The notes beneath the pieces were generated by a model that was not told the DNA's origin, searched no databases, and was given only the letters and a program-made list of their open reading frames with translations. From the NCBI RefSeq assembly GCF_000304355.2, contig NC_018227.2, forward strand, positions 1,736,001 to 1,800,000: 64,000 nt of DNA, written 5' to 3'. The stretch's first letter is position 1. Every line of letters begins with the position of its first letter. This document shows positions 22,251 to 63,242 of this stretch, in pieces. A program made the translations under genes and the position numbers. This DNA comes from Methanoculleus bourgensis MS2 (GTDB taxonomy: Archaea > Halobacteriota > Methanomicrobia > Methanomicrobiales > Methanoculleaceae).

Positions 22251-22652
22251 ATGGCAATCAGAGTGAATTTGATCACGGGTCGCTCGATCCAGCAGGGGGT
22301 GTCGATGGAGGCGGGGAAGGAAAAACCCGCCTACACCGCCGCCTGTGGGATCATTGAGCTGGACCCTGCGGATTTTAAGAAGCTTGGAGCTTTCCGCAAC
22401 ACGAACGTACGCGTCACGAGCAAGTACGGCAGTGTCGTCGTCAAGGCGGTCGAGGCAACCCAGGGTCCCCACCCCGGTGTAGCTTATATACCGATGGGAC
22501 CATGGGCAAACATGGTAGTCAACCCGAACACCTACTCAACCGGGATGCCCACGTTCAAGGGCACGCCCGTTGAGGTGGAGATAGCCAAGAACGAACCCGT
22601 TCTCGGCTCGCTCGAATTGGTGCGCAAGGGATGCAGGGGTGAACTGGCATGA
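22251..22652 (+). CDS. fwdD: Formylmethanofuran dehydrogenase subunit D
   Basis: FwdD is the small molybdopterin-dinucleotide-binding-domain subunit that completes the FwdB active site. The 133-residue protein has TGRSIQQGVSMEAGKEKP at the start, TNVRVTSKYGSVVVKAVE, and the family hallmark GVAYIPMGPWANMVVNPNTY. The start lies 35 bases after mvhD, and its stop overlaps the fwdB start in an ATGA. Whether the enzyme uses tungsten or molybdenum cannot be read from this subunit. Confidence 0.93.
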   Translation: MAIRVNLITGRSIQQGVSMEAGKEKPAYTAACGIIELDPADFKKLGAFRNTNVRVTSKYGSVVVKAVEATQGPHPGVAYIPMGPWANMVVNPNTYSTGMPTFKGTPVEVEIAKNEPVLGSLELVRKGCRGELA

Positions 22653-23962
22653 CAAAGACTGTAACTGACGTAATCTGCCCGTTCTGCGGAACGCTCTGCG
22701 ACGACCTTGAGGTCGTCGTCAGTGATGACGGAAAGGAACTCCTTGAGGTTTACAACGCGTGCGCCATCGGCGCCGAGAAGTTCCTCCACTCCCAGGCAAA
22801 GGACCGCCTCACCCGGCCCCGGATGCGACAGGAGGACGGTTCCTGGAAGGAGATCTCCTACGAGGAGGCAATTGAGTACACCGCCCAGATGCTCGCCGAC
22901 GCAACGAAACCCCTGATGTACGGCTGGAGTTCCACAAACTGTGAGGCCCAGTCAGTCGGGTCCGAGATCGGCGAGTATGTCGGTGCGGTCATGGATAACA
23001 CAGCGACCGTCTGTCACGGGACATCCCTTATCGCGGTCCAGGATATCGGTATCCCGAGCTGCACGCTCGGCGAGGTCAAGAACCGTGCCGACCGCATTGT
23101 CTTCTGGGGCTGCAACCCGGCTCATGCCCATCCTCGGCACATGTCGCGTTACTCAATCTTCCCCAGGGGATTCTTCACCGGCAAGGGTCATACGGGCCGC
23201 AAGATGGTTGTCGTTGATCCAAGGGTCACCGATACCGCCCGTATTGCGGATGTCCACCTGCAGATTGAGCAGGGACGCGACTATGAGCTCCTCGACGCAC
23301 TCCGTGTGGCGTTCAAGGGGGAGCAGCTCCCTGACGTCGTCGCCGGAATCGCGAAGGAGAAGATCTACGAGGTCGCGGAGACTCTCAAGAGCGGCCGTTT
23401 CACGATCATCTTCTTCGGCATGGGTGTGACTCAGTCGCTTGGGAAGAATCACAATATCGATGCAGCCATCGCGGTCACCCGTGACTTAAACGAGTACACG
23501 AAAGCCGCCATTATGCCGATGCGCGGGCACTATAACGTCACCGGCTCCGGTCAGGTATGGGGCTGGCAGTTCGGGTTCCCATTCGCGGTGGATCTCTCCC
23601 GCGGATTTGCCCGCTATAACCCCGGCGAGACGACCTCGAACGATCTGCTCCGCAGGGGCGAAGTGGATGCCATCTTCGTTCTCGGAAGCGATCCCGGTGC
23701 GCACTTTCCCTTCAGTTCGGTGAAGAAGATCTACGACCTCCCCTCGGTCGCAGTCGAACCGCACGAAACCCCAACCACTGAGGTCTGCAAGGTCCATGTC
23801 CCGGTTGCCTTCGTGGGCGTCGAGGTGGGCGGGTGTGCATACCGGATGGACAACGTGCCGATCGAGACAAGAAAGGTCGTTGAGCCCCCGGAGGGTATGA
23901 TGACCGATGAGGAGTTCCTCAGGCATGTCCTTGCGCGTGTCAAGGAGATCAAGGGGGTGTAA
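22649..23962 (+). CDS. fwdB: Formylmethanofuran dehydrogenase subunit B (Mo/W catalytic)
   Basis: FwdB reduces CO2 to formate, which then passes to FwdA. The 437-residue protein has an N-terminal [4Fe-4S] motif (CPFCGTLCDDLEV with CAIGAEKF) and the metal-ligating residue in ATVCHGTSL. That residue is Cys122, so this is the cysteine, not the selenocysteine, form. Further molybdopterin-oxidoreductase segments are FWGCNPAHAHPRH and VLGSDPGAHFP. Order fwdD-B-A-C is standard. Confidence 0.94.
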   Translation: MTKTVTDVICPFCGTLCDDLEVVVSDDGKELLEVYNACAIGAEKFLHSQAKDRLTRPRMRQEDGSWKEISYEEAIEYTAQMLADATKPLMYGWSSTNCEAQSVGSEIGEYVGAVMDNTATVCHGTSLIAVQDIGIPSCTLGEVKNRADRIVFWGCNPAHAHPRHMSRYSIFPRGFFTGKGHTGRKMVVVDPRVTDTARIADVHLQIEQGRDYELLDALRVAFKGEQLPDVVAGIAKEKIYEVAETLKSGRFTIIFFGMGVTQSLGKNHNIDAAIAVTRDLNEYTKAAIMPMRGHYNVTGSGQVWGWQFGFPFAVDLSRGFARYNPGETTSNDLLRRGEVDAIFVLGSDPGAHFPFSSVKKIYDLPSVAVEPHETPTTEVCKVHVPVAFVGVEVGGCAYRMDNVPIETRKVVEPPEGMMTDEEFLRHVLARVKEIKGV

Positions 23963-34847: not shown

Positions 34848-34853
34848 GGTGAA

Positions 34854-35327
34854 TAACATGGTTGAGAAGAAATCACCGGCCAGTGGATGGCCGATAGTTC
34901 AGGGCGACTTCCATACAGGAGATGCACAGAGTTGCGTCGGCGTCGTCACCATGGGATCCCACCTCGACGAACAGGGCATCTGTGATGCCGGAGCGGCTAT
35001 TGCCGGGTCCTGCAAGACCGAGAACCTGGGTATCGAGAAGATCATCGCAAACGTGATCTCAAACCCCAACATCCGGTTCATTCTCTGTTGCGGCACTGAG
35101 GTCAAGGGTCACCTTTCCGGCCAGAGTTTCATCGCGCTGCATGCCGGCGGTGTCTCCGGCGGGAAGATCGTCGGGGCCCAGGGTGCGATCCCGTTCATCG
35201 AGAACCTCTCCGACGAAGCGATCAAGCGCTTCCAGGACCAGGTCGAGATGGTCAACATCATGGAAAGCGAGGATATGGGCACCATCAAGGCCAAGATCGA
35301 TGAACTCAAGGCCAAAGACCCCGGTGC
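34854..35327 (+). repeat. Near-identical direct repeat of the mtrA corrinoid domain, copy 1
   Basis: This 474-base segment, from four bases before the mtrA ATG to codon 157, matches 35799-36272 base for base apart from one silent change (35214). Outside it the two genes diverge abruptly at both ends. Confidence 0.93.
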
Positions 35328-35583
35328 ATTCCCCGCAGAACCCATGATCGTCGAGGTCAAGGAAGCAGGCGGTGCCGGCGCTGAAGAGGTAAGCGGCGAA
35401 GTACAGCCGCTCTCCGGCGAACTGGCACTGGTACATGCACGGATGAAGATCATCGAGCAGATGGTCACGGACATCGGCTACCGCAACAGGTTTGCCGCCG
35501 GTGTCTACTCGGGCAAGATCGAGGGTCTCATGATCGGCCTGATCGTCTCGTTCGTGATTCTGGGATTCATCTTGCTGGGGTGA
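34858..35583 (+). CDS. mtrA: Methyl-H4MPT:coenzyme M methyltransferase subunit A (corrinoid), canonical copy
   Basis: MtrA carries the corrinoid that accepts the methyl group from MtrH and hands it to coenzyme M. The 241-residue protein has an N-terminal cobamide domain ([50 protein letters not shown]). His85 aligns with the corrinoid-coordinating histidine. A variable linker is followed by the usual C-terminal part, [17 protein letters not shown], and one membrane helix. Bases 34854-35327 recur with a single mismatch at 35799-36272 in the second mtrA copy. Confidence 0.96.
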
Positions 35584-35801: not shown

Positions 35802-36272
35802 CATGGTTGAGAAGAAATCACCGGCCAGTGGATGGCCGATAGTTCAGGGCGACTTCCATACAGGAGATGCACAGAGTTGCGTCGGCGTCGTCACCATGGG
35901 ATCCCACCTCGACGAACAGGGCATCTGTGATGCCGGAGCGGCTATTGCCGGGTCCTGCAAGACCGAGAACCTGGGTATCGAGAAGATCATCGCAAACGTG
36001 ATCTCAAACCCCAACATCCGGTTCATTCTCTGTTGCGGCACTGAGGTCAAGGGTCACCTTTCCGGCCAGAGTTTCATCGCGCTGCATGCCGGCGGTGTCT
36101 CCGGCGGGAAGATCGTCGGGGCCCAGGGTGCGATCCCGTTCATCGAGAACCTCTCCGATGAAGCGATCAAGCGCTTCCAGGACCAGGTCGAGATGGTCAA
36201 CATCATGGAAAGCGAGGATATGGGCACCATCAAGGCCAAGATCGATGAACTCAAGGCCAAAGACCCCGGTGC
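35799..36272 (+). repeat. Near-identical direct repeat of the mtrA corrinoid domain, copy 2
   Basis: Second copy of the 474-base repeat, offset by 945 bases from the first. It spans the mtrF stop, the start codon and codons 1-157 of the fusion gene. Homologous recombination between the copies would delete mtrF. Confidence 0.93.
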
Positions 36273-36543
36273 GTTCCCCGAAGAGCCTATGATCGTCGAG
36301 GTCAAGGAGGCGGGCGGCGGTGCGGCGGAAGTAGCCGTTGCAGGCGTAAACCCACAGTTCCTTGAGATCGAGGAGCGGCTCAACGCTATCGAGGAGAGGA
36401 TCGAGTTCGTCGATGCTGAGATGGCCCAGCGCGTCGGAAGGAAAGTAGGGCGCGATATCGGCATCCTGTACGGACTGGTTGCAGGTTTAATTGTATTCAT
36501 GATGTTGTTGATGTTACTGCCCAAATTGATTGGGTTCCTGTAA
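35803..36543 (+). CDS. MtrA-MtrG fusion: second corrinoid domain joined to the MtrG subunit
   Basis: A 246-residue chimera. Residues 1-157 are identical to the canonical MtrA corrinoid domain, including His85. After a short Ala/Gly linker, residues ~184-246 are Mtr[20 protein letters not shown], then [18 protein letters not shown] and a single membrane helix. No separate mtrG exists in the operon, so this gene must supply MtrG. The product would place an extra corrinoid domain at the MtrG position of the complex. Start and ribosome region are partly shared with the repeat, and the preceding stop (TAAC-ATG) is one base away. The sequence is high quality over the join: frame and codon use are normal. 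Confidence 0.9.
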
Positions 36544-38216: not shown

Positions 38217-38909
38217 ATGAAGCTGATTACCGTTGCAGGCCCCCCGTCTTCGGGGAAGACCTCTGTGATTCTCAAAACCATTGCAGCCCTTGGACTACCC
38301 AAAGGGAGCGTGGGTGTTGTGAAGTTTGATTCGCTTACCTCCTTTGATTACCAACGCTATGATGAACAGCAGATACCCAACCAGACCGCTTTTGCCGGAA
38401 AGATCTGTCCGGACCACTTCTTTGTCAGCAATGTTGAAGGGGCGGTAGAATGGGGTATGAAGAAGGGGTTGTCGGTTCTTGTCACAGAGAGTGCAGGTCT
38501 CTGCAACCGGTGCTCGCCATACGTGAACGGTATTCTGTCGGTTTGCGTCATCGACAATCTCTCCGGTGTCAATACGCCGAGGAAGATCGGTCCGATGCTG
38601 AAGTATGCCGATATCGTCGTTGTCACCAAAGGCGATGTTGTCTCCCAGGCGGAGCGCGAGGTCTTTGCCTTCAATATCCGTGAGGTCAACGCATCGGCAA
38701 CAGTTCTGTTCGTCAACGGGATTACCGGCCAGGGAGCGTTTATGCTTGCCCGCTACTGGCAGGATGCCCTTGATATCCAGACGCTTCGTGACCGCAACCT
38801 CAGATTCACCATGCCTGCCGCCATCTGTTCGTACTGTACCGGCGAGACCCTCATCGGAGAGATGTACCAGATGGGGATGGTCAAAAGAGTGGAGTTTGAC
38901 GATGCATGA
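38217..38909 (+). CDS. HypB/UreG-like GTPase, likely metal-trafficking
   Basis: A 230-residue SIMIBI-class GTPase related to HypB and UreG, which help insert nickel into enzymes. Walker A is VAGPPSSGKTSVI at residues 6-18. A CxxC lies in ESAGLCNRCSPYVNG, the G4-like motif is VTKGDVV, and a second CxxC is in AICSYCTGETLIG near the C-terminus. Cysteine pairs suggest metal binding. It overlaps the next gene in an ATGA and leads a three-gene unit with an ABC ATPase and a DUF364-type protein. No hydrogenase or urease genes are adjacent, so the client is unknown. Confidence 0.75.
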   Translation: MKLITVAGPPSSGKTSVILKTIAALGLPKGSVGVVKFDSLTSFDYQRYDEQQIPNQTAFAGKICPDHFFVSNVEGAVEWGMKKGLSVLVTESAGLCNRCSPYVNGILSVCVIDNLSGVNTPRKIGPMLKYADIVVVTKGDVVSQAEREVFAFNIREVNASATVLFVNGITGQGAFMLARYWQDALDIQTLRDRNLRFTMPAAICSYCTGETLIGEMYQMGMVKRVEFDDA

Positions 38910-39940
38910 AAGCCCTTGATTATGCTGCAGAGGTTTCTGCCGTGCCACTTGGTGATATCCTTCGCCGATATCCTCTTGCGGCCGATTACCTTGCCAACAT
39001 GCGGCTCGATGGGGTTGATGAGACCAAAACGCTCCCTGAGGTTCTGGAGGATGTCGATGAGGATATGCTTGAGGAGTTCGGGCTTGATCGCGAGGAGGTC
39101 ATATTCCACTTCTGTGCATTTCTTGCGGCATTTTCCCCGGTGAAGGGTTCTGTTGAGACAATCTCCTCCATCACGATCCTCGGCGGGCGGGACAAGGCGG
39201 GAAAACCCGAGATGGTCGAGCTGACCATACCACCCGGCGAGGTCGTCAGTATTGTCGGTCCTACCGGCTCAGGAAAAAGCAGGCTGCTTGAGGATATTGA
39301 GTGTCTTGCCCAGCGCGATACGCCGACCGCACGGCAGATCCTCATCAACGGTTCGGTTCCTGATCTCGATACGAGATTCTCCGCCGGAGGAAAACTGGTG
39401 GCCCAGCTCTCGCAGAACATGAACTTCGTCATGGATCTAACCGTGCAGGAATTTCTGGAGATGCATGCAAAAAGCCGGATGATCTCTGAATCCGCAGCGG
39501 TTGTGAAGAAGTGTTTTGCGGTTGCCAATTCTCTTGCAGGTGAGAAATTTACGCTTGATACGAAAGTCACCCAGCTCTCCGGCGGGCAGTCGCGGTCACT
39601 GATGATTGCCGATACCGCTCTTTTGAGTTCATCCCCGATCATCCTCATCGATGAGCTCGAGAATGCAGGAATTGACCGGCGGGAGGCGATCAAGCTCCTC
39701 GTCGGCAACGAGAAGATTGTCCTCATGTCGACGCATGACCCGCTCCTTGCCCTCCGTGCCGATAAGCGGGTTGTCATCAGAAACGGCGGCATCGCAAAAG
39801 TGATCGAGACGACTGCGGAGGAGGAAGAGGCGCTTCATAGGATTGAGGCGATTGATTCCGCCCTCCTCGATATCCGCAACCAGCTCCGGGGAGGAGGGGT
39901 TGTCACAAAAGAAAGCATTCCGGATTTTCAGGAGAGATAA
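38906..39940 (+). CDS. Soluble ABC-type ATPase with N-terminal extension
   Basis: A 344-residue ATPase. An N-terminal region of ~95 residues (with GDILRRYPLAADYLANMRLDG, reminiscent of DUF1858-like helical domains) precedes an ABC core. The core has Walker A SIVGPTGSGKSRLL, signature TQLSGGQSRSLMI, Walker B PIILIDELENAG and a switch histidine in MSTHDPLLALR. No membrane helix and no adjacent permease are present, so it is unlikely to be an ordinary importer; it may act on a protein or cofactor. It overlaps the GTPase gene and lies three bases before the DUF364-type gene. Confidence 0.75.
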   Translation: MKALDYAAEVSAVPLGDILRRYPLAADYLANMRLDGVDETKTLPEVLEDVDEDMLEEFGLDREEVIFHFCAFLAAFSPVKGSVETISSITILGGRDKAGKPEMVELTIPPGEVVSIVGPTGSGKSRLLEDIECLAQRDTPTARQILINGSVPDLDTRFSAGGKLVAQLSQNMNFVMDLTVQEFLEMHAKSRMISESAAVVKKCFAVANSLAGEKFTLDTKVTQLSGGQSRSLMIADTALLSSSPIILIDELENAGIDRREAIKLLVGNEKIVLMSTHDPLLALRADKRVVIRNGGIAKVIETTAEEEEALHRIEAIDSALLDIRNQLRGGGVVTKESIPDFQER

Positions 39941-39943
39941 TGC

Positions 39944-40708
39944 ATGTGGGAATTGTATGATGCATTGATTGAGGAGATCCCGGACGAGATCATCGTCGAT
40001 GATGTTGTCGTCGGCGGGGAGATGACGTATGTTGAGGCAAACGGCTGCATCGGTCTTACAGCATACCGCGATTATGTCCAGCGTGCCCCGATGATGACCG
40101 GAAACAGGATCGGAAGGCCGTTAAAAGAGGTGGCCGGGTATGTGAAGTCCTGGAATTTTCGGGAAGCGTCAATCGGCCAATCGGCGATTAACGCGTGGTA
40201 CAATCATCCCGATACTGCCAGAAGAGCAGGAATCGAGATTGCAGAAAAGAAGCGGGTTGAGGAGCGACTGAAAGACCCCTTCATCAAGTCCCAGAACCTT
40301 GTGAAGGGTAAGAAGGTCTGTGTTGTCGGCCATTTTCCGTTCCTTGAAAAACTGATCGCCCCGGTCTGTGACCTGAGTATTGTTGAGTGGGACCCCGAGG
40401 AGGGAGATTACCCGTATTCTGCCTGTGAGTATCTGCTGCCAGAATGCGATTATGCGTTTCTGACCTGCGCCGCTATCGGCGACAAGAGTATGCCGCGGCT
40501 CCTTGAGCTCTCGGAAAATGCGAAAGGGGTGACGATCGTAGGTCCGGGAACTCCTCTCTCATCGGTATTCTTCGAATACGGCGTCTCTGACCTCTCAGGT
40601 TTTGTCGTAACCGATGTCCGGCTCGCCAAACGGATCCTTGCAGGAGCAGAAAGCCAGAGGATCTTTGGGGCGGGGATGAAGGTGGAATATCTTCGGGGCG
40701 GGGTTTGA
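39944..40708 (+). CDS. DUF364/DUF4213-type protein (putative metal chelation)
   Basis: A 254-residue protein. Its N-terminal part (DDVVVGGEMTYVEANGCIGL, INAWYNHPDTARR) resembles DUF4213. The C-terminal Rossmann-like part (KVCVVGHFPFLEKLIAPVCD, CEYLLPECDYAFLTCAAIGD, VTIVGPGTPLSSVFF) resembles DUF364. The family was named from structures suggesting heavy-metal chelation; no reaction is established. It is translated with a HypB-like GTPase and an ABC ATPase. Together they look like a small metal or cofactor handling module near the methanogenesis operons. Confidence 0.7.
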   Translation: MWELYDALIEEIPDEIIVDDVVVGGEMTYVEANGCIGLTAYRDYVQRAPMMTGNRIGRPLKEVAGYVKSWNFREASIGQSAINAWYNHPDTARRAGIEIAEKKRVEERLKDPFIKSQNLVKGKKVCVVGHFPFLEKLIAPVCDLSIVEWDPEEGDYPYSACEYLLPECDYAFLTCAAIGDKSMPRLLELSENAKGVTIVGPGTPLSSVFFEYGVSDLSGFVVTDVRLAKRILAGAESQRIFGAGMKVEYLRGGV

Positions 40709-40798
40709 AGGAGAGTACGGTGTATTTTCGTGTCTTGCGGATAATAGTCAACACCAAGACCGGATCCTGGGTTGAATGTTTTCAGGATGTCTTGGGAG

Positions 40799-41066
40799 TC
40801 ACAACCCCCGATATGCAGTGCGCCGGTGGCGGACACAGAGGATTATAACCTCCTGCTCTCCATGATTCACAGCGCATATAATCCGGTAATCTCCTACCCG
40901 AATCCGGTAAGAGATGCTCTGCTCCGCTTAATTTGCGCACACCGGGCGGTAGCGGTGTTTCAGATAGAGCCTCTATGTCCTGTAGAATGCGCAGAACAAC
41001 CTCACCCGGCAATGCTGCGATATCCTTCTCGACGCTTGCTTTGATGCGAACCGCATATCCCGCCAT
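40799..41066 (-). pseudogene. RelE-type toxin with a one-base frameshift
   Basis: The frame begins MAGYAVRIKASVEKDIAALP and reads as a RelE/ParE-family toxin up to KLSGAEHL. It then leaves the family pattern. Shifting by one base restores it: YRIRVGDYRIICAVNHGEQE, VIILCVRHRRTAYRGL, stop at 40799-40801. An extra base near 40908-40914 (GAGCATCTCTTACCGG on the minus strand where CATCTTTACCGG would be expected) explains the break. Either the toxin is dead or the assembly has a one-base error. As it stands the open frame runs out of family to 40782. It overlaps the antitoxin in a TAATG junction. Confidence 0.8.
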
Positions 41067-41245
41067 TATCGCTCATATCGCTTCTTGAACTCGTCAAATC
41101 CGATGCTCGGTTCTTCGCGCCGCTCTGCTACCACGGCAAGGTCATGGAGGTCCTCTTGCAGTTGCTCGTACTCCCGGAGAGGAAGAATAATCGCGACACG
41201 GTTTCCGTGCTCATCAACAACGTAGTGTTCTCCTGTAGCACTCAT
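41066..41245 (-). CDS. RelB/Phd-type antitoxin
   Basis: A 59-residue antitoxin partner for the RelE-type toxin. It has HYVVDEHGNRVAIILPLREY, typical of the DNA-binding N-terminal half, and an acidic, charged tail (ERREEPSIGFDEFKKRYER) that would wrap the toxin. The ATG at 41245 is chosen from the family pattern; the frame is open to 41305. Stop and toxin start overlap (TAATG). With the toxin frameshifted, it may now be an orphan. Confidence 0.72.
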   Translation of the reverse strand: MSATGEHYVVDEHGNRVAIILPLREYEQLQEDLHDLAVVAERREEPSIGFDEFKKRYER

Positions 41246-41440
41246 CGTTGCAGTCTCCTCACTCCTAGACGGAATGCAGAGACCATTAACCTTCTTTTGC
41301 TGCATCAGGTGAAGGAGCCCCTCCCCCCTACTGCCGGAACGCCTGGAGCTCGACCACCGCTAGTGCCGAGTCAATCATTCAACGTCGGGTATGGGCGTGC
41401 TAGTGCTTGTTGTCATCTTCAACGTAGAGATCTCCTGTCC

Positions 41441-41879: not shown

Positions 41880-42845
41880 TCAGGGCAACTCGATACTCCC
41901 TGCAATCCGGAGTTTCCCGCCCTCGAGGTAGTGGAGCACTGCCGTATCGCCCGGGAGGTAGACGAGGTCCTTCTCAAGCGCGAGCGTGAGCGTCGGTCTC
42001 CGCCAGTCTCCGTCGTCCCGCACTGCCTCCACCCGAACCGGGATGAACTGCATCCAGTGGCCGAGGTGGAGCACCGTCCCCGCCGTGAGGGGTGCCGGCC
42101 AGTATTTGACCAGGGTCGCTCGTGCCTCAAGGCTCGTCCGTGTCTGGATCGCGGGATCGCTTGAGAGGACGAAACCGCGGTCCAGGTCGTCGGACTCGAT
42201 GTTCTTGAGCGCGAGCCCCACGCGGTCGCCTTCAGTGGCCCAGTCAAAGTCGTCGTCATGCTTCTGGATGGACCGCACCGTGATCGCCTGCTCCCCCGGG
42301 TAGATCTTCAGGGTGTCGTGCTTCCTGATGCCCCCCCGCATCACGCCGCCAAGGATGACCGTCCCGATGCCGCGGACGTTGAAGTGGTGGTCGATGGGAA
42401 TGGTTCCTGTGACACCGGTCGCAGGCTCGGCGGACTGTCGCGCGTGTGCGCGAGCGAGCAGGCGGTCGCGGAGCACGATCGGGTCCTCTTCCACGAACTC
42501 GTAGTCCTCAAGCACCGTTCCCTGGAGGAGCGGTGCCAGGTCTCCGGGGGTTAGGTAGTTCTGGAGGACGATGTAGCCCTGCTCCACCCCGACCTCATCG
42601 AGCATCAGGACCCACTCCCCGAAGATCGGCGTGATCTCGCTCACCACGACGAGGGCCGCATCAGCCATCGACGCCGCATAGAAGAGCGGGGCCAGCCGCT
42701 CAGGGTACCGTGTCGGTTCGATGAGGGTGATGGTATCGGCGCCTTTCTTCAGGTTATAGAAGGTGATATCGGAAGCCGTGCCTTTCTTCCCGAGGTCCTT
42801 TGCGTAACCTAGAGGTCCCAGCACGGCAACATTCAGGTTGCCCAT
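41880..42845 (-). CDS. SelB-like elongation-factor paralogue with degenerate GTPase motif
   Basis: A 321-residue protein related to EF-Tu/SelB. The N-terminal domain begins MGNLNVAVLGPLGYAKDLGK, where a P-loop GHVDHGKT would be expected; the lysine/threonine pattern is broken, so GTP binding is doubtful. Domain 2 is clear (TGTIPIDHHFNVRGIGTVIL, GGIRKHDTLKIYPGEQ), and domain 3 follows (HLGHWMQFIPVRVEA). This matches the archaeal SelB-like family (aSelBL) described as having lost canonical GTPase residues. Role unknown; recoding or a translation-linked sensor have been suggested for the group. The ATG at 42845 is preferred; 42857 is possible. Confidence 0.75.
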   Translation of the reverse strand: MGNLNVAVLGPLGYAKDLGKKGTASDITFYNLKKGADTITLIEPTRYPERLAPLFYAASMADAALVVVSEITPIFGEWVLMLDEVGVEQGYIVLQNYLTPGDLAPLLQGTVLEDYEFVEEDPIVLRDRLLARAHARQSAEPATGVTGTIPIDHHFNVRGIGTVILGGVMRGGIRKHDTLKIYPGEQAITVRSIQKHDDDFDWATEGDRVGLALKNIESDDLDRGFVLSSDPAIQTRTSLEARATLVKYWPAPLTAGTVLHLGHWMQFIPVRVEAVRDDGDWRRPTLTLALEKDLVYLPGDTAVLHYLEGGKLRIAGSIELP

Positions 42846-42879
42846 ATTCCAGATCATTTGGTTATCCGAGAGTATGAGG

Positions 42880-43243: not shown

Positions 43244-44233
43244 ATGGATTTTAACAAAGTAAAGTTAATTTTGCTATACACTATGCGGAGAACGGCGTCG
43301 ATCACGATCCTGGCACTCACCGGTATACTTCTTGCCAGCATGGCCTGTGCAGTCACTCTCGGTCCGGCCAGTATATCTCTCGGATCCCTGTTTGCGCTGC
43401 CCAATGCATGGAAGATCTTCTGGGATGTCAGGCTGCCGCGGGTGATTGCCGCGGTGCTGGTCGGGTGCGCGCTTGCCGTGGCGGGCACAGCCATGCAGGG
43501 GCTGTTCCGGAACTCCATGGCCGATCCCTACATCATCGGCACGTCATCCGGGGGGGCGCTCGGGGCCACACTCTCGATCGTCCTCTTCGCGGGCACAGGG
43601 CGACCGGTCTTCGCATTCATAGGGGCGACGGTCGCCACCTTCACCGTCTACACCATCGCCCGCCAGGGCGGGAAGGTTCCGGTCGAGACACTCCTGCTCT
43701 CCGGCGTCGCCCTCTCCATGCTGCTCTCAGCGTTTCTCTCGTTTCTCATGTACACCGCGGGGAAAAGCCTCCACCAGATCATGTTCTGGCTGATGGGCGG
43801 GTTCTGGAACGTCTCGTGGGATGACGTCCGCATCGCCATCCTCATCCCGATCGGGTGTCTGGTCATCTACCTCTACGCTCGCGATATCAACATCATATCG
43901 CTCGGGGAAGAGGACGCGATCCACCTCGGCGTGAACGTCGAGCGGTTGAAACAGCTCCTCCTCTTTGCGAGCGCCTTCCTGACCGGAATAGCGGTCTCGA
44001 TCGCGGGGGCGATCGGGTTCATCGGCCTGATCACTCCGCACGTGATGCGCCTGATCGTCGGGCCCGACCACCGCATCCTCCTTCCTGCGGCCGCGCTTGC
44101 GGGAGGGATCCTCCTCCTCTGGTCTGATACGCTCACAAGGACGTTTGCCGGAGACATGCCGGTCGGGATCATCACCGCCTGTTTCGGGGCACCGTTCTTC
44201 ATATACCTCCTGCGGAGCCGGATGAAAGCATGA
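43244..44233 (+). CDS. btuC: BtuC/FecCD-family ABC permease (cobalamin/corrinoid or iron-chelate)
   Basis: The membrane subunit of a type II ABC importer, 329 residues, about ten helices. Family landmarks are RLPRVIAAVLVGCALAVAG, GTAMQGLFRNSMADPYIIG, WLMGGFWNVSWDDV and GAIGFIGLITPHVMRLIVGP, which holds the ATPase-coupling helix. Cobalamin and siderophore permeases look alike; the B12 call leans on the neighbouring transcobalamin-like surface proteins. Two starts are possible: ATG 43244 or ATG 43283. A TTAAC-8-GTTAA inverted repeat at 43251-43268 falls between them, which would favour 43283 if it is an operator. The stop overlaps btuD in an ATGA. Confidence 0.82.
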   Translation: MDFNKVKLILLYTMRRTASITILALTGILLASMACAVTLGPASISLGSLFALPNAWKIFWDVRLPRVIAAVLVGCALAVAGTAMQGLFRNSMADPYIIGTSSGGALGATLSIVLFAGTGRPVFAFIGATVATFTVYTIARQGGKVPVETLLLSGVALSMLLSAFLSFLMYTAGKSLHQIMFWLMGGFWNVSWDDVRIAILIPIGCLVIYLYARDINIISLGEEDAIHLGVNVERLKQLLLFASAFLTGIAVSIAGAIGFIGLITPHVMRLIVGPDHRILLPAAALAGGILLLWSDTLTRTFAGDMPVGIITACFGAPFFIYLLRSRMKA

Positions 44234-45474
44234 AACCAGTCGAAGTCATCGGTATCGACGTCTCTTACGGCGCAAAGAAGGTCCTCGAAGCAATCTCACT
44301 GCATGTGGAGAGAGGCGAGATCCTTGGGATTATCGGGCCGAACGGGTCGGGGAAGACGACGCTCATCAAGGCGATGAGCCGGATAGTCGCCCCGGAGAAT
44401 GGGGAGGTCCATCTCAATGACCGGAACCTGGATTTTTTCAGTTTCCGTGAACTGGCTCAGCAGGTCGCTGTCGTGCCGCAGGAGATCTCGATCGGTTTCG
44501 ATTACACCGTGCGCGATATCGTCATGATGGGAAGGCATCCCTACATCGGAAGGCTCTCCTCCGGGACCGCCCGGGATCTGGAGGTCTGCGACCGCGCCAT
44601 GCACCTCGCAAACGTCGCATACCTCGCCGACTCATCGGTCAACGAGATCAGCGGCGGCGAGCGGCAGCGGGTGTTCATCGCCCGGGCGCTCGCGCAGGAA
44701 CCGAAGATCCTGCTCCTCGACGAGGCGACCTCAAACCTCGATATCAGTCACCGGATCGAGATCTTAAACATCATCAGGAGTCTCACCGACGAGATCACGG
44801 TGATCAGCGTCTTCCATGACCTGAACCTGGCTGCCTACTACTGCGACCGCCTGATCATGCTGAAAGACCGGCAGGTGTTTGCCGTCGGGGAACCCCGGGA
44901 TGTGCTGACGCAGGAGACGCTCAATGCGGTATATGGGATCGACATCCTGGTAAAAACCCACCCCCTGACTGGCAAACCCTATATCCTCCCGGTGTATGGG
45001 CATACCGCAGACCATCAACCGGAAGAGGGTGTGCACGTCATATGCGGCGGGGGCACGGGGTCAGACCTCCTCTACGCCCTCCACAGGGAGGGGTTCAGGG
45101 TGAGCGCAGGCGTGCTCAATCTGTTAGATACCGATTATGCGGCCGCGACAGCGCTGGGTATCCCCTGCGTTACCGAGGCGCCGTTTGCCGCGATCTCTCC
45201 GGACGCCCGCGATAACCTCAGACGGTGCGTCGATGCCGCGTGTGCGGTCGTCGTCACGGCCATGCCCATCGGGCAGGGCAACATCGAGAATATCAGGATA
45301 CTGAAGGGCTACCGTGACAAGCCCATCATACTCCTCTGCGGCGGCGCGAACCCGTCCTTCCAGGACTACGTCGGGGGAGAGGCCGAAGCGATCATTCGCG
45401 AACTGCTTGACCGGGGTGCGGTCACGGCGGGGCGGATCGATGAGGTCCTGCAGGTCCTCAAACGGATGGAGTGA
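44230..45474 (+). CDS. btuD: BtuD-type ABC ATPase with extra C-terminal domain
   Basis: The ATPase partner of the permease, 414 residues. The ABC core (1-255) has Walker A GIIGPNGSGKTTLIKA, signature NEISGGERQRVFIARAL, Walker B ILLLDEATSNLD and VISVFHDLNLAAYYCDR. Residues ~265-414 are an added Rossmann-like domain (VHVICGGGTGSDLLYALHRE, GVLNLLDTDYAAATALGIPC, PIILLCGGANPSFQDYVGG), a length and layout seen in other archaeal BtuD proteins. Its role, possibly ligand sensing, is unknown. Confidence 0.82.
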   Translation: MKPVEVIGIDVSYGAKKVLEAISLHVERGEILGIIGPNGSGKTTLIKAMSRIVAPENGEVHLNDRNLDFFSFRELAQQVAVVPQEISIGFDYTVRDIVMMGRHPYIGRLSSGTARDLEVCDRAMHLANVAYLADSSVNEISGGERQRVFIARALAQEPKILLLDEATSNLDISHRIEILNIIRSLTDEITVISVFHDLNLAAYYCDRLIMLKDRQVFAVGEPRDVLTQETLNAVYGIDILVKTHPLTGKPYILPVYGHTADHQPEEGVHVICGGGTGSDLLYALHREGFRVSAGVLNLLDTDYAAATALGIPCVTEAPFAAISPDARDNLRRCVDAACAVVVTAMPIGQGNIENIRILKGYRDKPIILLCGGANPSFQDYVGGEAEAIIRELLDRGAVTAGRIDEVLQVLKRME

Positions 45475-49200: not shown

Positions 49201-50000
49201 CCTTCTCGGTCGACACCACCGGTCCGGCCGCAGTCGGGGAGGAGGTCATCATATCAGGAAACACCCTCACGGTCAACCGGAGCGGCCTCGTGCTGACCAT
49301 CGCCGCCAGGAACATCAACGAGAAGGACGGCGTGGCCAGCGGCCTCATCGAGAGCGTCACCGCGGCAATCAACCCGATCTCCAGAGAGATCGAGGGCATG
49401 GGGGCCGTAGCCGCTTCACTGGTCCTCAACCTCACCGGTATCCCGGCGGCTGACGGTCGGCTCGATATCGCCTTCAACGCCACCCCGGATGCAACAGCAG
49501 AAAGGGCTTTCACTCTTGCTGCCGCAGAGAAGAATGAAGAGATCACTGCTCTTGCCTACACTGTGACTGTCACGCGAACCAACCTGGAGAATGGTGAAGA
49601 TATCGCCGGAGCAGTGATCCGGATGACCATAAGCCCCGGGTGGGTGGAAGAGCACGGCGGCGTGGGTGCCCTCAGGATCGCTCGATCTTCAGAGGACGGC
49701 ACATACCGGATACTCGATACCCGGGTTGCCGGGACCGATGAGAGCGGGAACCTGATCGTTGAGGCGACCTCACCCGGCGGCCTCTCGGTCTTCGGCCTGC
49801 TGGCGGTCAAGGCGGCACCTCCGGCACGGGACACCCTGGCGACCGCCGTAACCTCTGCGGTCTCTGATACGCCCGCTGCAGCAGAAACGCCTGCAGGAGC
49901 ATCCCCGTCTCTCTCATCACCGCTCATCATTGCCGGGGTGAGTGCGGTCCTGCTTATCGGGGCGGTATATCTCGTCGTCAAGCGAAGGAGACAACCATGA
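46242..50000 (+). CDS. Giant surface protein: PQQ-type propeller plus four transcobalamin-like (DUF4430) domains
   Basis: A 1252-residue exported protein. Signal peptide MRSRLPPIFVGLIMLSLLLV is followed by a PQQ/YVTN-type beta-propeller (about 28-395; CYDAATGVELWTNELGG, CIDPATQSAVWTF, LYAVDAGTGEPVWSY). Four repeats of ~125 residues follow at about 400-528, 530-665, 668-800 and 810-930. Each has a TVNRTSALGALDAA-like helix, a G-(S/T)FL-SI-GI segment, SW-YSVNG and L-DGD-ITYWYGAW. This is the pattern of DUF4430, the fold of the transcobalamin/intrinsic-factor C-terminal domain. A Gly/Ser linker, a ~220-residue region and a C-terminal membrane helix with KRRRQP complete it. The stop overlaps the next gene by four bases (ATGA). 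Corrinoid binding is inference from fold and neighbours. Confidence 0.78.
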   Translation: MRSRLPPIFVGLIMLSLLLVGVASASYPMFHHDQQRIGYVPGEGPQTNATLWVAETAEYADGSPAVHNGKVFVPTWPDMNFDETNPMGLVCYDAATGVELWTNELGGADVGSVSGVAIADGQVYLGGTDGRLYCVDEATGETLWASDRIDATGYFGLSSSPLVYEGTVYALSASDGVLHAFNPDGTVAWIFETGNGVLYFTSPAGYDGKIYCAGNRSQIFCIDPATQSAVWTFNQGGSVKSSPVIGEDGTVYFTTNSRCYALDGTTGTERWNSFVTGTAATPALANGYIYAGASDGLHCLDASTGEEKWHFPAKEVNVAPVVAGNLVYAATNEETGTLYAVDAGTGEPVWSYTLKAAGDGTFAAFFASSPAVSDGVLYIGAENNRFYAFGEGEVPGPVFTGWSGSVSLADGQTFTVTPFNNDSARYTINRTSALGVLDAAATKGGFNYTVLEREWGTFLYSIGGIAYNETSGDSWVYSVNGVPAEVGAADYSLADGDVITYWYGAWGSTPETADAVVTITVSIPAPPAPVPALWNGTVVLTKGETFQFVPSNNASASYTVNRTTDLGALDAAAVSGNFTFNTSDSWYASYGSFLLEDIAGIANEDWTQENARSWSIFINGAAAPAGFGANSLADGDRLAFYYCPSDPVTWAPLIDRAEYAVTIDVTVRDFSWEGTVSLADGQTFQVTPFNNASATYTVNRTSALGALDVAASTGGFDYTVQETAWGSFLYSIGDIAYNETSWDSWLYSVNGMPAEVGAADFSLTDGDVVTYWYGAWGSSPETARAVVNITVSIPKPGSGGGGEDDCGDSPSPWITVTLNPGTFTLAADNSKKTYDVNRQTALGALDAAGVGYTVDDTYYQDYGSLFIDSIKGRKNDGAKGWMYQVNGESPGVGANTYTVKDGDNVVFFWSESMSSTPATSPDVVSIKVVIPGSSGGSGSDSSGSGGSSSTGTASGSGQQDGSEPGPASFLLRLPAGATVELGEWGQTFSVDTTGPAAVGEEVIISGNTLTVNRSGLVLTIAARNINEKDGVASGLIESVTAAINPISREIEGMGAVAASLVLNLTGIPAADGRLDIAFNATPDATAERAFTLAAAEKNEEITALAYTVTVTRTNLENGEDIAGAVIRMTISPGWVEEHGGVGALRIARSSEDGTYRILDTRVAGTDESGNLIVEATSPGGLSVFGLLAVKAAPPARDTLATAVTSAVSDTPAAAETPAGASPSLSSPLIIAGVSAVLLIGAVYLVVKRRRQP

Positions 50001-51967
50001 AACACGGAATCAGTATCCTGCTCATCCTCCTGCTCTGCATAGCCTCGTGCGTAGCCTACCCCATGGATCCGGGTGACCCGGCCATCCAGGCCTCCCTGGA
50101 CTACCTCCGCGACTGCCAGAAGAGTGATGGCGGTTTCGGGGAAGCAGGGCGCGAGAGCAGTCCCGGCACATCCTCGTGGACGATCATGGCAGCCGTCGCT
50201 GCAGGCGAAGACCCGCGGGGATGGGTAAAGAACGGTAACTCGACCATCGACTACCTCCGGTCGATGAATGACGATATTCTAGCAAAAGGAGGGACCGTCG
50301 ATATCGCGCGCACGATCCTGACGCTGGTAGCGGTCGAAGAAGATCCCCGTGCCTTATGCGGGACCGATTACGTCGCGGAACTGAAATCGCGGGTGAAACC
50401 CAGCGGCCAGGCGGGAGACCACGTCTTCACGACCATCTGGACGATCATTGCCCTCGCTTCGGTCGGAGAAGAGACCGATGCATCGGCCGCATGGCTGGCA
50501 TCCCAGCAGAATGCAGACGGAGGCTTCCCCTGGACGCCGGGTGCCGAGAGCGACCCGGACGATACGGGCGCCGCACTTGAGGCGCTCGCGGCGGCGGGCA
50601 TCTCCCACGACGCGGCCGCGGTGCAGAACGCTCTCGCGTACTTGAAGGGGATGCAGCAGGAGGACGGCGGTTTCCACTACGGGGGAACGAGCGCTACAAA
50701 CTCTGCATCTGATTCCTGGGTCATCCAGGGTATTGTTGCCGCAGGAGGCAACCCTGCAGAGTGGAGAGCGGATAAGACGAGTGTGGTTGACCACCTCATC
50801 GGCCTGCAGAATCCCGACGGTTCGTTCCGCCATACCACCTACGTGACCGACAACCCCTGTGGGATGACGGCAAGTGCAGTCCCTGCACTCCTCGGAAAAC
50901 CCTACCCGGTGACCCCTTCAGAAACTCTACCGCTGTCACCCGCCACACCCGCACCGCACGTCACGACCACTGCCCCGACCGCAACACCAGCCCGAACCCC
51001 CGCTCCGGCGGCAACAGGCACCGGTGGGGGGACCGTGACGGTGACTGACGATTTTGGGGAGACAGTCACCATCCGGGGAATACCGCAGAGGATCGTCTCG
51101 CTTGCACCCTCCAACACCGAGATCCTGTATGACCTTGGTCTTGAGGACCGGATCGTCGGTATCACCGACTACTGTAACTATCCGCCGGCAGCCGCTGATA
51201 AACCAAAAGTCGGCGGATACAGTACTATCAGTATCGAGCGGGTGCTCGCGGCCGATCCCGATCTGGTCTTTGCCGCGCTTGGCAACACCGAAGACGTGGT
51301 CAACCGCCTGCGATCCCTCGGGATGACCGTCGTCTCACTCAACCCGGAGACGATCAACGATGTCCTGCATGACATCGAACTTGTCGGTGCTGCCACCGGG
51401 CAGGAAGAGCAGGCAGCGGCGTGCGTGAAGGAACTCCGGGCCCGCATCCAGGCAGTGACCGAAAAGACGGAGGGCCTGACAGAGAAGCCTTCGGTCGCCC
51501 ATGTCATCTGGTACGACCCGATCTGGGTCAGCGGCAAGGGGACGTTCCAGGACGAGGTGATCACGATGACCGGCGGTGTCAATGCGTTCGGTTCGGTCGA
51601 GGGATGGAGCATCATCGGCCTTGAAGAGTTCCTCACCTCAGATCCGGAGTACATCCTCGTCAGTTCTGGCACCGGCATGGGCGAGGGGGGGTATGATATC
51701 GTCTATGACTACTTCATGAACGAGCCCAGGATGCAGCAGCTCGATGCGGTCAGGAACGGCCATGTCTACGTCATCGACGCCGATATCATCAGCAGGGGAA
51801 GCCCGCGGATCGTGGATGCGCTGGAAGAGGTGGCGGGAGATCTCCACCCTGACCTCTTTGGAACGAGCGTCCCGGACACAACCCCCGTAGCACAGTCCCC
51901 GGGTTTCGGCGTGATCGCGCTTATCTGTGCGTTCTTCGCTGTCTTCCTGATCAGGGTGAAAAGGTAG
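49997..51967 (+). CDS. Alpha/alpha-barrel domain fused to BtuF-like periplasmic binding domain, PGF-type anchor
   Basis: A 656-residue exported protein. After a signal peptide (GISILLILLLCIASCVAYP), residues ~20-305 form an alpha/alpha toroid with four Q-x-DG-F repeats (QKSDGGFGE, QQNADGGFPW, QQEDGGFHYG, QNPDGSFRH), as in prenyltransferase/terpenoid-cyclase-like and transcobalamin alpha domains. A Thr/Pro linker leads to a class III solute-binding domain (~348-620: RIVSLAPSNTEILYDLGLED, VVSLNPETINDVLHDIE, WYDPIWVSGKGTFQDEVI) like BtuF. The tail is SPGFGVIALICAFF plus KR, a PGF-CTERM-like anchor. It would capture substrate outside the membrane and feed the BtuCD pair encoded upstream. Confidence 0.8.
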   Translation: MKHGISILLILLLCIASCVAYPMDPGDPAIQASLDYLRDCQKSDGGFGEAGRESSPGTSSWTIMAAVAAGEDPRGWVKNGNSTIDYLRSMNDDILAKGGTVDIARTILTLVAVEEDPRALCGTDYVAELKSRVKPSGQAGDHVFTTIWTIIALASVGEETDASAAWLASQQNADGGFPWTPGAESDPDDTGAALEALAAAGISHDAAAVQNALAYLKGMQQEDGGFHYGGTSATNSASDSWVIQGIVAAGGNPAEWRADKTSVVDHLIGLQNPDGSFRHTTYVTDNPCGMTASAVPALLGKPYPVTPSETLPLSPATPAPHVTTTAPTATPARTPAPAATGTGGGTVTVTDDFGETVTIRGIPQRIVSLAPSNTEILYDLGLEDRIVGITDYCNYPPAAADKPKVGGYSTISIERVLAADPDLVFAALGNTEDVVNRLRSLGMTVVSLNPETINDVLHDIELVGAATGQEEQAAACVKELRARIQAVTEKTEGLTEKPSVAHVIWYDPIWVSGKGTFQDEVITMTGGVNAFGSVEGWSIIGLEEFLTSDPEYILVSSGTGMGEGGYDIVYDYFMNEPRMQQLDAVRNGHVYVIDADIISRGSPRIVDALEEVAGDLHPDLFGTSVPDTTPVAQSPGFGVIALICAFFAVFLIRVKR

Positions 51968-62411: not shown

Positions 62412-63242
62412 ATGAAACGATCGACCCCGGCAACTCTTGTTGCAGTAAGTCTTCTGATCATCGCCGGTCTCCTGGTTGCGGGATGCACAACCACCCAGCA
62501 GGAGACTCCTGGAGAGACAACCCTGACCGTCTTTACGGCAGCATCGCTCACAGGAGCCTTCACTGATATCGGCAAAGCCTACGAGGCAAAGAACGAAAAC
62601 GTCAAGGTCGAATTTGTCTTCGACGGTTCGCAGACCCTCCGCACCCAGATCGAGCAGGGAGCGACCCCTGATATCTTCGTCTCCGCGAGCACGAAGCACA
62701 TGAAAGCGCTCCAGGGTGCTGGATTCATGGACAACGACACCGTGGCTCCGTTCCTCGGGAACAGCCTGGCCCTGGTTGTCCCGGCCGATAACCCGGCAAA
62801 GATCACCGGCGTTGCGGACCTGAATAAATCGGGTGTGAAACTTGTCATCGGCACCAAGGATGTCCCCTTCGGCGACTATACCCGGCAGATGCTCGACAAG
62901 ATGGCCGCCGATCCCAAATACGGTGAGGCCTACCGCGATGCTGTGATGAAGAACGTCATCTCCGAGGAGACCGCGGTGACGTCCGTGATGCCCAAACTGA
63001 TGCTCGGCGAAGCGGATGCATCGTTCGTCTACAAGTCGGATGTCTCCAAGGACGACCGGGACAAGCTGACGCGGCTCGACGTCCCATCGGAGTACAACGT
63101 CATGGCCACATACCCGCTCGGCATCCTTACGGAGTCGTCGCAGAAGACTGAAGCAGAGTCGTTCATAGCATTCGTCCGCGGTCCGGACGGCAGCGCCATT
63201 CTGACAGAATATGGATTTGACCCGATTCCGGCAGGAAAGTGA
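62412..63242 (+). CDS. modA: Molybdate/tungstate-binding lipoprotein ModA
   Basis: The extracellular binding protein of an oxyanion ABC importer, 276 residues. A lipobox (LLVAGC, Cys25) anchors it. The type II binding fold is marked by TVFTAASLTGAFTDIGKAYE, EFVFDGSQTLRTQIEQGATP, DIFVSASTKHMKAL and a C-terminal YNVMATYPLGILTES. Ligand could be molybdate or tungstate. Formylmethanofuran dehydrogenase encoded in this window needs one of them. The modB start overlaps its last 11 codons. Confidence 0.9.
   Translation: MKRSTPATLVAVSLLIIAGLLVAGCTTTQQETPGETTLTVFTAASLTGAFTDIGKAYEAKNENVKVEFVFDGSQTLRTQIEQGATPDIFVSASTKHMKALQGAGFMDNDTVAPFLGNSLALVVPADNPAKITGVADLNKSGVKLVIGTKDVPFGDYTRQMLDKMAADPKYGEAYRDAVMKNVISEETAVTSVMPKLMLGEADASFVYKSDVSKDDRDKLTRLDVPSEYNVMATYPLGILTESSQKTEAESFIAFVRGPDGSAILTEYGFDPIPAGK

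Follow-up and report, generated by a model that had tools for sequence, protein, structure and literature searches.

Three genes lying side by side in a methanogen genome, encoding a GTPase, a soluble ABC ATPase and a DUF4213+DUF364 protein, constitute a real, uncharacterised and metal-linked module. The metal that this trio handles is, judging from gene neighbourhoods and importer phylogeny, very probably molybdenum or tungsten (Mo/W). We favour, with moderate confidence, the view that the trio is an accessory cytosolic Mo/W module acting behind an importer of molybdate, tungstate or a related Mo/W complex, with a chaperone-type mechanism in a loose sense of the term. The conservation of the unit, the invariance of its nucleotide-binding and Cys/His motifs and its Mo/W context were computed here. 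The new elements are the unit formed by the GTPase and the ABC ATPase, the MolB clade of importers, an importer operon in Methanocorpusculum, the transfer pattern of the trio and the reuse of the GTPase-ABC pair in other settings.

Organization of the trio

The DNA analysed here (the window) is a stretch of 64,000 nucleotides, G000:C1:1736001-1800000, in a single contig of 2,789,774 bp, from a genome whose closest named relatives in the DUF364-subfamily scan are Methanoculleus. The three ORFs lie on the same strand at the positions originally assigned to them (Table 1). The first two genes overlap by 4 bp (ATGA) and a gap of 3 bp separates the second from the third, which gives the trio its operon-like look. 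The gap that follows the mtr operon upstream of the trio had been described as repeat-rich and 620 bases long. Its length is correct and it contains four inverted-repeat pairs, but no direct-repeat family was found in it, so that the description as repeat-rich is accurate only in part.

Table 1. Coordinates of the trio genes and of their conserved motifs and domains in the window
Feature	Position	Strand	Remarks
GTPase gene, gene 1 of the trio	38217..38909	+	230 aa; G3E/SIMIBI, UreG/HypB fold; Pfam, structure model
CPDH motif, residues 64-67 of the GTPase	38406..38417	+	invariant in 89/89 family members
CxRC motif, C96/C99 of the GTPase	38502..38513	+	invariant in 89/89 family members
C-terminal CxxC motif, C204/C207 of the GTPase	38826..38837	+	invariant in 89/89 family members
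Soluble ABC ATPase gene, gene 2 of the trio	38906..39940	+	344 aa; Pfam, motifs
N-terminal helical domain of the ABC ATPase, ~residues 1-86	38906..39165	+	AF2 helices 3-76
DUF4213+DUF364 gene, gene 3 of the trio	39944..40708	+	254 aa; homologue of Dhaf4260 (PDB 3l5o)

The third protein exceeds the gathering cut-offs of both DUF364 (PF04016; E 1.3e-32, 112.9 versus 23 bits) and DUF4213 (PF13938; E 1.3e-16, 61 versus 23.5 bits). It is a close homologue of Dhaf4260, a DUF364/PF04016 protein of Desulfitobacterium hafniense, which it matches over nearly its full length (E 4e-95, 56% identity). The 2010 structure paper on that protein already contains a proposal of heavy-metal handling for DUF364, notes Mo, W, V and Fe transport neighbours, and describes an enzyme-like cleft with a proposed action on a flavin-, pterin- or siderophore-like molecule (PMC2954201). 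As far as consulted, the paper does not present the GTPase-ABC pair as members of the unit, the MolB importer clade or the trio operons of methanogens. Beyond this structure paper, no functional study on DUF364, COG2014, DUF4213 or HI1472 with molybdate and tungstate was recognised in literature searches, and a 2026 paper on tungsten-specific FDH maturation makes no mention of a GTPase, ATPase or DUF. A second, divergent DUF364 protein of ~300 aa is encoded in the same genome near ruvABC (G000:2141137-2142039).

Distribution and inheritance

When 84,980 species genomes were scanned for the DUF364 subfamily, 70 loci were obtained. By tblastn the complete trio was recovered in the same order and strand at 31 loci on public contigs, with four more that are interrupted by contig ends. 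The original prediction had named rare co-occurrence of the three genes as evidence against it; within this DUF364 subfamily their co-occurrence turned out to be almost constant. DUF364 proteins at 46% identity or less are mostly encoded alone (hereafter, solo). Among archaea the trio is hosted by Methanomicrobiales (Methanoculleus, Methanocorpusculum, Methanomicrobium and Methanocalculaceae), and among bacteria by Bacillota (Pelotomaculum and other Desulfotomaculaceae, Desulfosporosinus, Acetobacterium, Pectinatus and other Clostridia) and Riflebacteria. All 43 trio rows of the GTPase tree fall in one clade with a single intruder (support 100/99), and the methanogen GTPases are nested among those of Bacillota. 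This topology suggests that the trio moved between domains as a unit.

The trio is absent from most of the genomes sampled in the class. Within Methanoculleus the GTPase was found in 12 of the 34 genomes sampled; therefore, it is an accessory protein in this genus, and no universal methanogenesis enzyme can depend on it alone for maturation. The same patchiness makes the module directly testable by presence/absence comparisons. Two loci stand out. In a single-contig Methanocorpusculum genome (L206:5553-6892) the trio is decayed: the GTPase is down to ~53 codons and the ABC gene carries an inner tetranucleotide (GACA-type) repeat of 38 units, possibly reflecting phase variation or loss. One Methanoculleus MAG (L048:8183-8947) has an in-frame TAG at DUF364 codon 46, which may be a sequencing error, a pseudogene or a case of readthrough.

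The GTPase and the soluble ABC ATPase

The GTPase was recognised by the Pfam cobW model (E 1.4e-9) and passes the gathering cut-off of the CobW/HypB/UreG superfamily (PF02492; 38.3 versus 20.7 bits). Its AlphaFold (AF2) model (pLDDT 85.7) has UreG (4hi0) and HypB (2hf8) as best Foldseek matches, with TM-scores of 0.62-0.66 by query length. It shares with these metal-insertion GTPases the SIMIBI/G3E fold, the P-loop, the TKxD motif and a comparably placed Cys-His motif, but it falls far under the curated cut-offs of both families, and the assignments to HypB (TIGR00073, 43.3 versus 121.2 bits) and to UreG (TIGR00101, 22.4 versus 204.2 bits) were rejected. A genuine HypB is encoded elsewhere in the genome (G000:434033, 248 bits). 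The original description of a HypB-like GTPase with two CxxC pairs was right about the cysteine pairs and the fold; the protein is not HypB itself. Unlike HypB and UreG, the protein carries the extra invariant CxRC and C-terminal CxxC motifs, and its neighbours are an ABC ATPase and a DUF364 protein instead of HypA or UreE/F/H. It has in addition a third motif that had gone unnoticed, CPDH, which lines up with the Cys/His stretch in the HypB that this genome encodes.

The second protein (Pfam ABC_tran, E 1.6e-17) is, as read from its sequence, an ABC ATPase with intact catalytic motifs: Walker A, LSGGQ, the Walker B DE and the H-loop are invariant in 88 of 88 relatives. As predicted, no permease gene was found in the trio or directly beside it within the window. 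A membrane partner behaving as an ordinary transporter had been regarded as an argument against the module. Importers do often lie beside it in relatives, but these carry their own BtuD- or WtpC-type ATPase, and for this reason the ABC ATPase of the trio does not simply supply what a conventional importer lacks. A precedent, and nothing closer than that, for a non-transporting ABC ATPase is AtwA, or component A2 of MCR activation, a soluble permease-less ABC ATPase of methanogens that drives cofactor chemistry. The N-terminal helical domain of the trio protein shows a suggestive resemblance to the DUF1858 domain of certain cytosolic SBP-like proteins described below; the hhalign match is weak (probability 55%, E 1.2e-4), and at this probability a DUF1858 identity was rejected.

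Reuse of the GTPase-ABC pair

The GTPase family is present in 51 of 398 sampled Bacillota genomes, and gene maps place the GTPase-ABC pair in four settings. Its partner is DUF364 plus a MolB-type importer in the first; in the second it is a cytosolic SBP-like protein that has an N-terminal DUF1858 and is often encoded near a hybrid-cluster protein; in the third, a shorter SBP-like protein accompanied by an importer of the Tau or FecCD type; and in the fourth, an Fe-S protein (PF04060). These four settings, together with motifs that do not vary in 89/89 GTPases and 88/88 ABC proteins, suggest that the pair may be a reusable engine with client-specific partners. A bolder version, which we hold only tentatively, is that the pair would be a previously undescribed two-nucleotide engine of anaerobes for general cofactor or metal delivery, in which the client would depend on the third subunit: Mo/W with DUF364, other imported ligands with the cytosolic SBP-like protein and sulfur/homocysteine chemistry with the Fe-S protein. 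Cofactor delivery by a G3E GTPase together with a permease-less ABC ATPase and an exchangeable client protein would be unfamiliar.

At eight loci (L160, L161, L162, L165, L168-L170 and L174) the pair is encoded with an SBP_bac_6-like cytosolic protein, and a gene for a hybrid-cluster (prismane) protein is repeatedly close by. The genome under study itself has a paralogous pair (L033:5635-8966; G000 ~48.6-52.0 kb), in the order ABC, GTPase, Fe-S protein, homocysteine biosynthesis enzyme (PF01837) and cysteate synthase.

Molybdenum and tungsten genes around the trio and its relatives

Peripla_BP_2 (13), ABC_tran (12) and FecCD (8) head the top 25 Pfam families listed for the neighbours of the trio, which also include methyltransferases (7) and NTPase_1 (5). 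The corresponding list for solo DUF364 genes holds the same families plus MoeA (6), XdhC (4), MobA-like (4) and nitrogenase components (2). Solo relatives adjoin MoeA, XdhC, MobA-like and xanthine-dehydrogenase genes, and the strongest Moco-gene context is found at those with 29-46% identity. The top 25 families of each tally, for the trio as for its relatives, include no recurrent Ni or Co gene family. Nickel (F430), cobalt (corrinoid) and Mo/W enzymes had all been put forward as possible clients; Mo/W gained from MolB-type permeases, a ModAB operon and the Mo genes of solo loci, and nickel and cobalt found no support, with no recurrent family among those listed.

The importers point in the same direction. 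The permease of the Acetobacterium trio operon scores highest with HI1471/MolB (238 bits; FhuB 173, HmuU 163, BtuC 112), and with a profile of trio and solo permeases MolB reaches 364 bits, 103 bits ahead of the next match (261). In the permease tree MolB is joined by 13 permeases from trio loci and 12 from solo loci (99/98), apart from BtuC and HmuU. MolBC-A of Haemophilus influenzae, a FecCD-type system, is an experimentally studied molybdate importer (PMC4031551), whose clade includes permeases beside both trio and solo DUF364 genes; it has its own ATPase, the trio being an additional soluble set. Of 44 trio loci, 15 have a MolB-clade FecCD permease no more than 7 kb away. The remaining 29 have no MolB-type permease nearby, many of them ending at contig ends. 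Three SBPs from the loci with MolB-type permeases match the molybdate/tungstate-binding protein MolA HI_1472 (1e-21, 1.5e-12 and 2.7e-6), but they match the uncharacterised structures 4pag and 4ovk better.

A different importer is joined to the trio in one Methanocorpusculum lineage (L041, L206), where DUF364 is followed, at 17-56 bp and on the same strand, by TrmO, ModA, a second TrmO-like gene, ModB and a WtpC-like ATPase (ModA 86 > 62.5, ModB 188 > 182.6, WtpC 436 of 440), with a Mop gene beside this operon. Two members of the same family (L056, L057) do not have the ModA-ModB-WtpC-type importer, and in one of them (L057) a gene for a MolA-type SBP is oriented divergently to the trio. A Mop gene overlaps a MolC-like gene in Riflebacteria, and formate dehydrogenase alpha is encoded upstream of the trio in Desulfotomaculaceae.

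In a class survey of 199 genomes the MolB-type permease occurred in 24 of 27 with the trio DUF364 versus 61 of 172 without it (p 2e-7), an association confounded by phylogeny; within Methanoculleus there was none (8/10 versus 15/24, p 0.44). Mo/W marker genes were counted near 5/46 trio, 1/41 pair-only and 16/34 solo loci, but marker seeds came partly from the loci counted, so the counts are not independent; they were rejected as statistical proof and the transporter evidence was used instead. Around the trio, Mo/W genes other than those for transport (MoeA, Fdh and others), at 5/46 loci, are not clearly above background. A 2018 comparative-genomics survey of molybdenum use recognised only ModABC, WtpABC and TupABC, besides a ModABC-like subgroup, for prokaryotic uptake (PMC6147048). 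If the Mo/W assignment holds, methanogens, acetogens and gut Clostridia would have a further Mo/W route, in which DUF364 works with a MolB-type importer and the GTPase-ABC pair may or may not take part. A function would then be assigned to a domain of unknown function that had its structure solved in 2010.

Proposed function and alternative explanations

According to the model that we propose, a MolB-type or other importer would bring in molybdate, tungstate or a related Mo/W complex, and the DUF364 protein, using the cleft that separates its two domains, would bind or process what has been imported. Carrying or gating would be the part of the GTPase: its invariant Cys/His motifs would take up the metal itself or a Cys-bound form, in the way known for UreG and HypB with nickel. 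The ABC ATPase would open and close on DUF364, on the GTPase or on both during its ATP cycle, with release coupled to hydrolysis and directed to cofactor assembly (the MoeA route) for formylmethanofuran dehydrogenase (Fwd) and formate dehydrogenase (Fdh). The chaperone-type mechanism itself draws on genomic context and family knowledge, and its chances are at best close to even. The original proposal of an uncharacterised, metal-linked module is partly supported, with Mo/W as the one of its three client classes that found support.

The imported species could instead be an organic chelate of Mo, W or iron, delivered by a FecCD-type importer, whose ligand would be modified or broken by DUF364, a methyltransferase and an NTPase, the GTPase and the ABC ATPase taking the freed metal. 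Such processing would suit the enzyme-like cleft of DUF364, with the substrate proposed in its structure paper (PMC2954201), the SAM methyltransferases and NTPase_1 proteins that recur at trio and solo loci, and the importer type, since chelates are common cargo of FecCD systems. It is nevertheless unlikely, given that the importers belong to the clade of a molybdate transporter, that one Methanocorpusculum lineage joins the trio to a ModAB/WtpC-type oxyanion importer and that no recurrent chelator biosynthesis cluster was seen. It is also conceivable, at rather long odds, that no metal is involved and that the GTPase-ABC pair works as a machine for redox or sulfur chemistry, with DUF364 as a client-specific adapter. 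The pair does recur next to an Fe-S protein and homocysteine biosynthesis genes (L033), hybrid-cluster protein and cytosolic SBP-like proteins, but the DUF364 branch has repeated links with MolB-type importers and with Mo genes.

The position of the trio after mtr, followed by a B12/heme-type FecCD-BtuD pair and, further on, a BtuF-like SBP, would fit a cobalt module that loads or reactivates the MtrA corrinoid. A trio beside mtr was seen in no genus other than Methanoculleus, and for this reason a link to Mtr drawn from adjacency was rejected. The trio is also found in bacteria, Mtr is needed by all Methanoculleus genomes yet only part of them have the GTPase, and the trio-linked importers of relatives are MolB-type and not BtuC-type, all of which makes a corrinoid function very unlikely. 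Least probable is a nickel module for [NiFe] hydrogenase or F430, a role for which there is hardly any room: the nearest GTPase folds are UreG and HypB and the Cys/His motif aligns with that of HypB, but the protein scores under the HypB cut-off in a genome with a separate genuine HypB, the recurrent neighbours (top 25 families listed) include no family for Ni transport, hydrogenase or F430, and most sampled genomes of the class dispense with the trio although methanogens need nickel.

Importers and other genes around the trio

For the Mo/W module favoured here, the likely importers in this genome are the MolB-type permease at G000:23999-25030 (425 bits versus 261 for the next match), in a region with SBP and methyltransferase genes, and the ModA/ModB-like genes that start at 62412, at the right end of the window. 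That permease lies away from the trio, unlike in the relatives with an adjoining one. A FecCD permease and a BtuD-like ATPase that the original prediction did not include are located 2.5 kb downstream of the trio (43244-45474). By PDB ranking and tree this FecCD protein groups with HmuU/BhuU/BtuC; it was rejected as the transporter of the trio, the two genes are probably not its partners, and they most likely encode a B12 or heme importer, the one nearest to the trio in the window.

Other ORFs of the window deserve mention. A 656-aa ORF at 49997-51967 ends in a BtuF-like SBP (51047-51964) that is 67% identical to the SBP beside a relative's B12/heme-type importer. The fwdB gene is located at 22649-23962. 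Two mtrA-like ORFs (34849-35583 and 35803-36543) have the same N-terminal sequence, and the second is fused to an MtrG domain. On the minus strand, 41880-42857 encodes an EF-Tu domain 2 protein, weakly SelB/EF-1alpha-like, that has no GTPase-domain match in Pfam. Just downstream of the trio, two small adjoining ORFs on the minus strand (40782-41066 and 41066-41305) look by eye like a pair of RelE/ParE-type toxin and RelB/Phd-type antitoxin.
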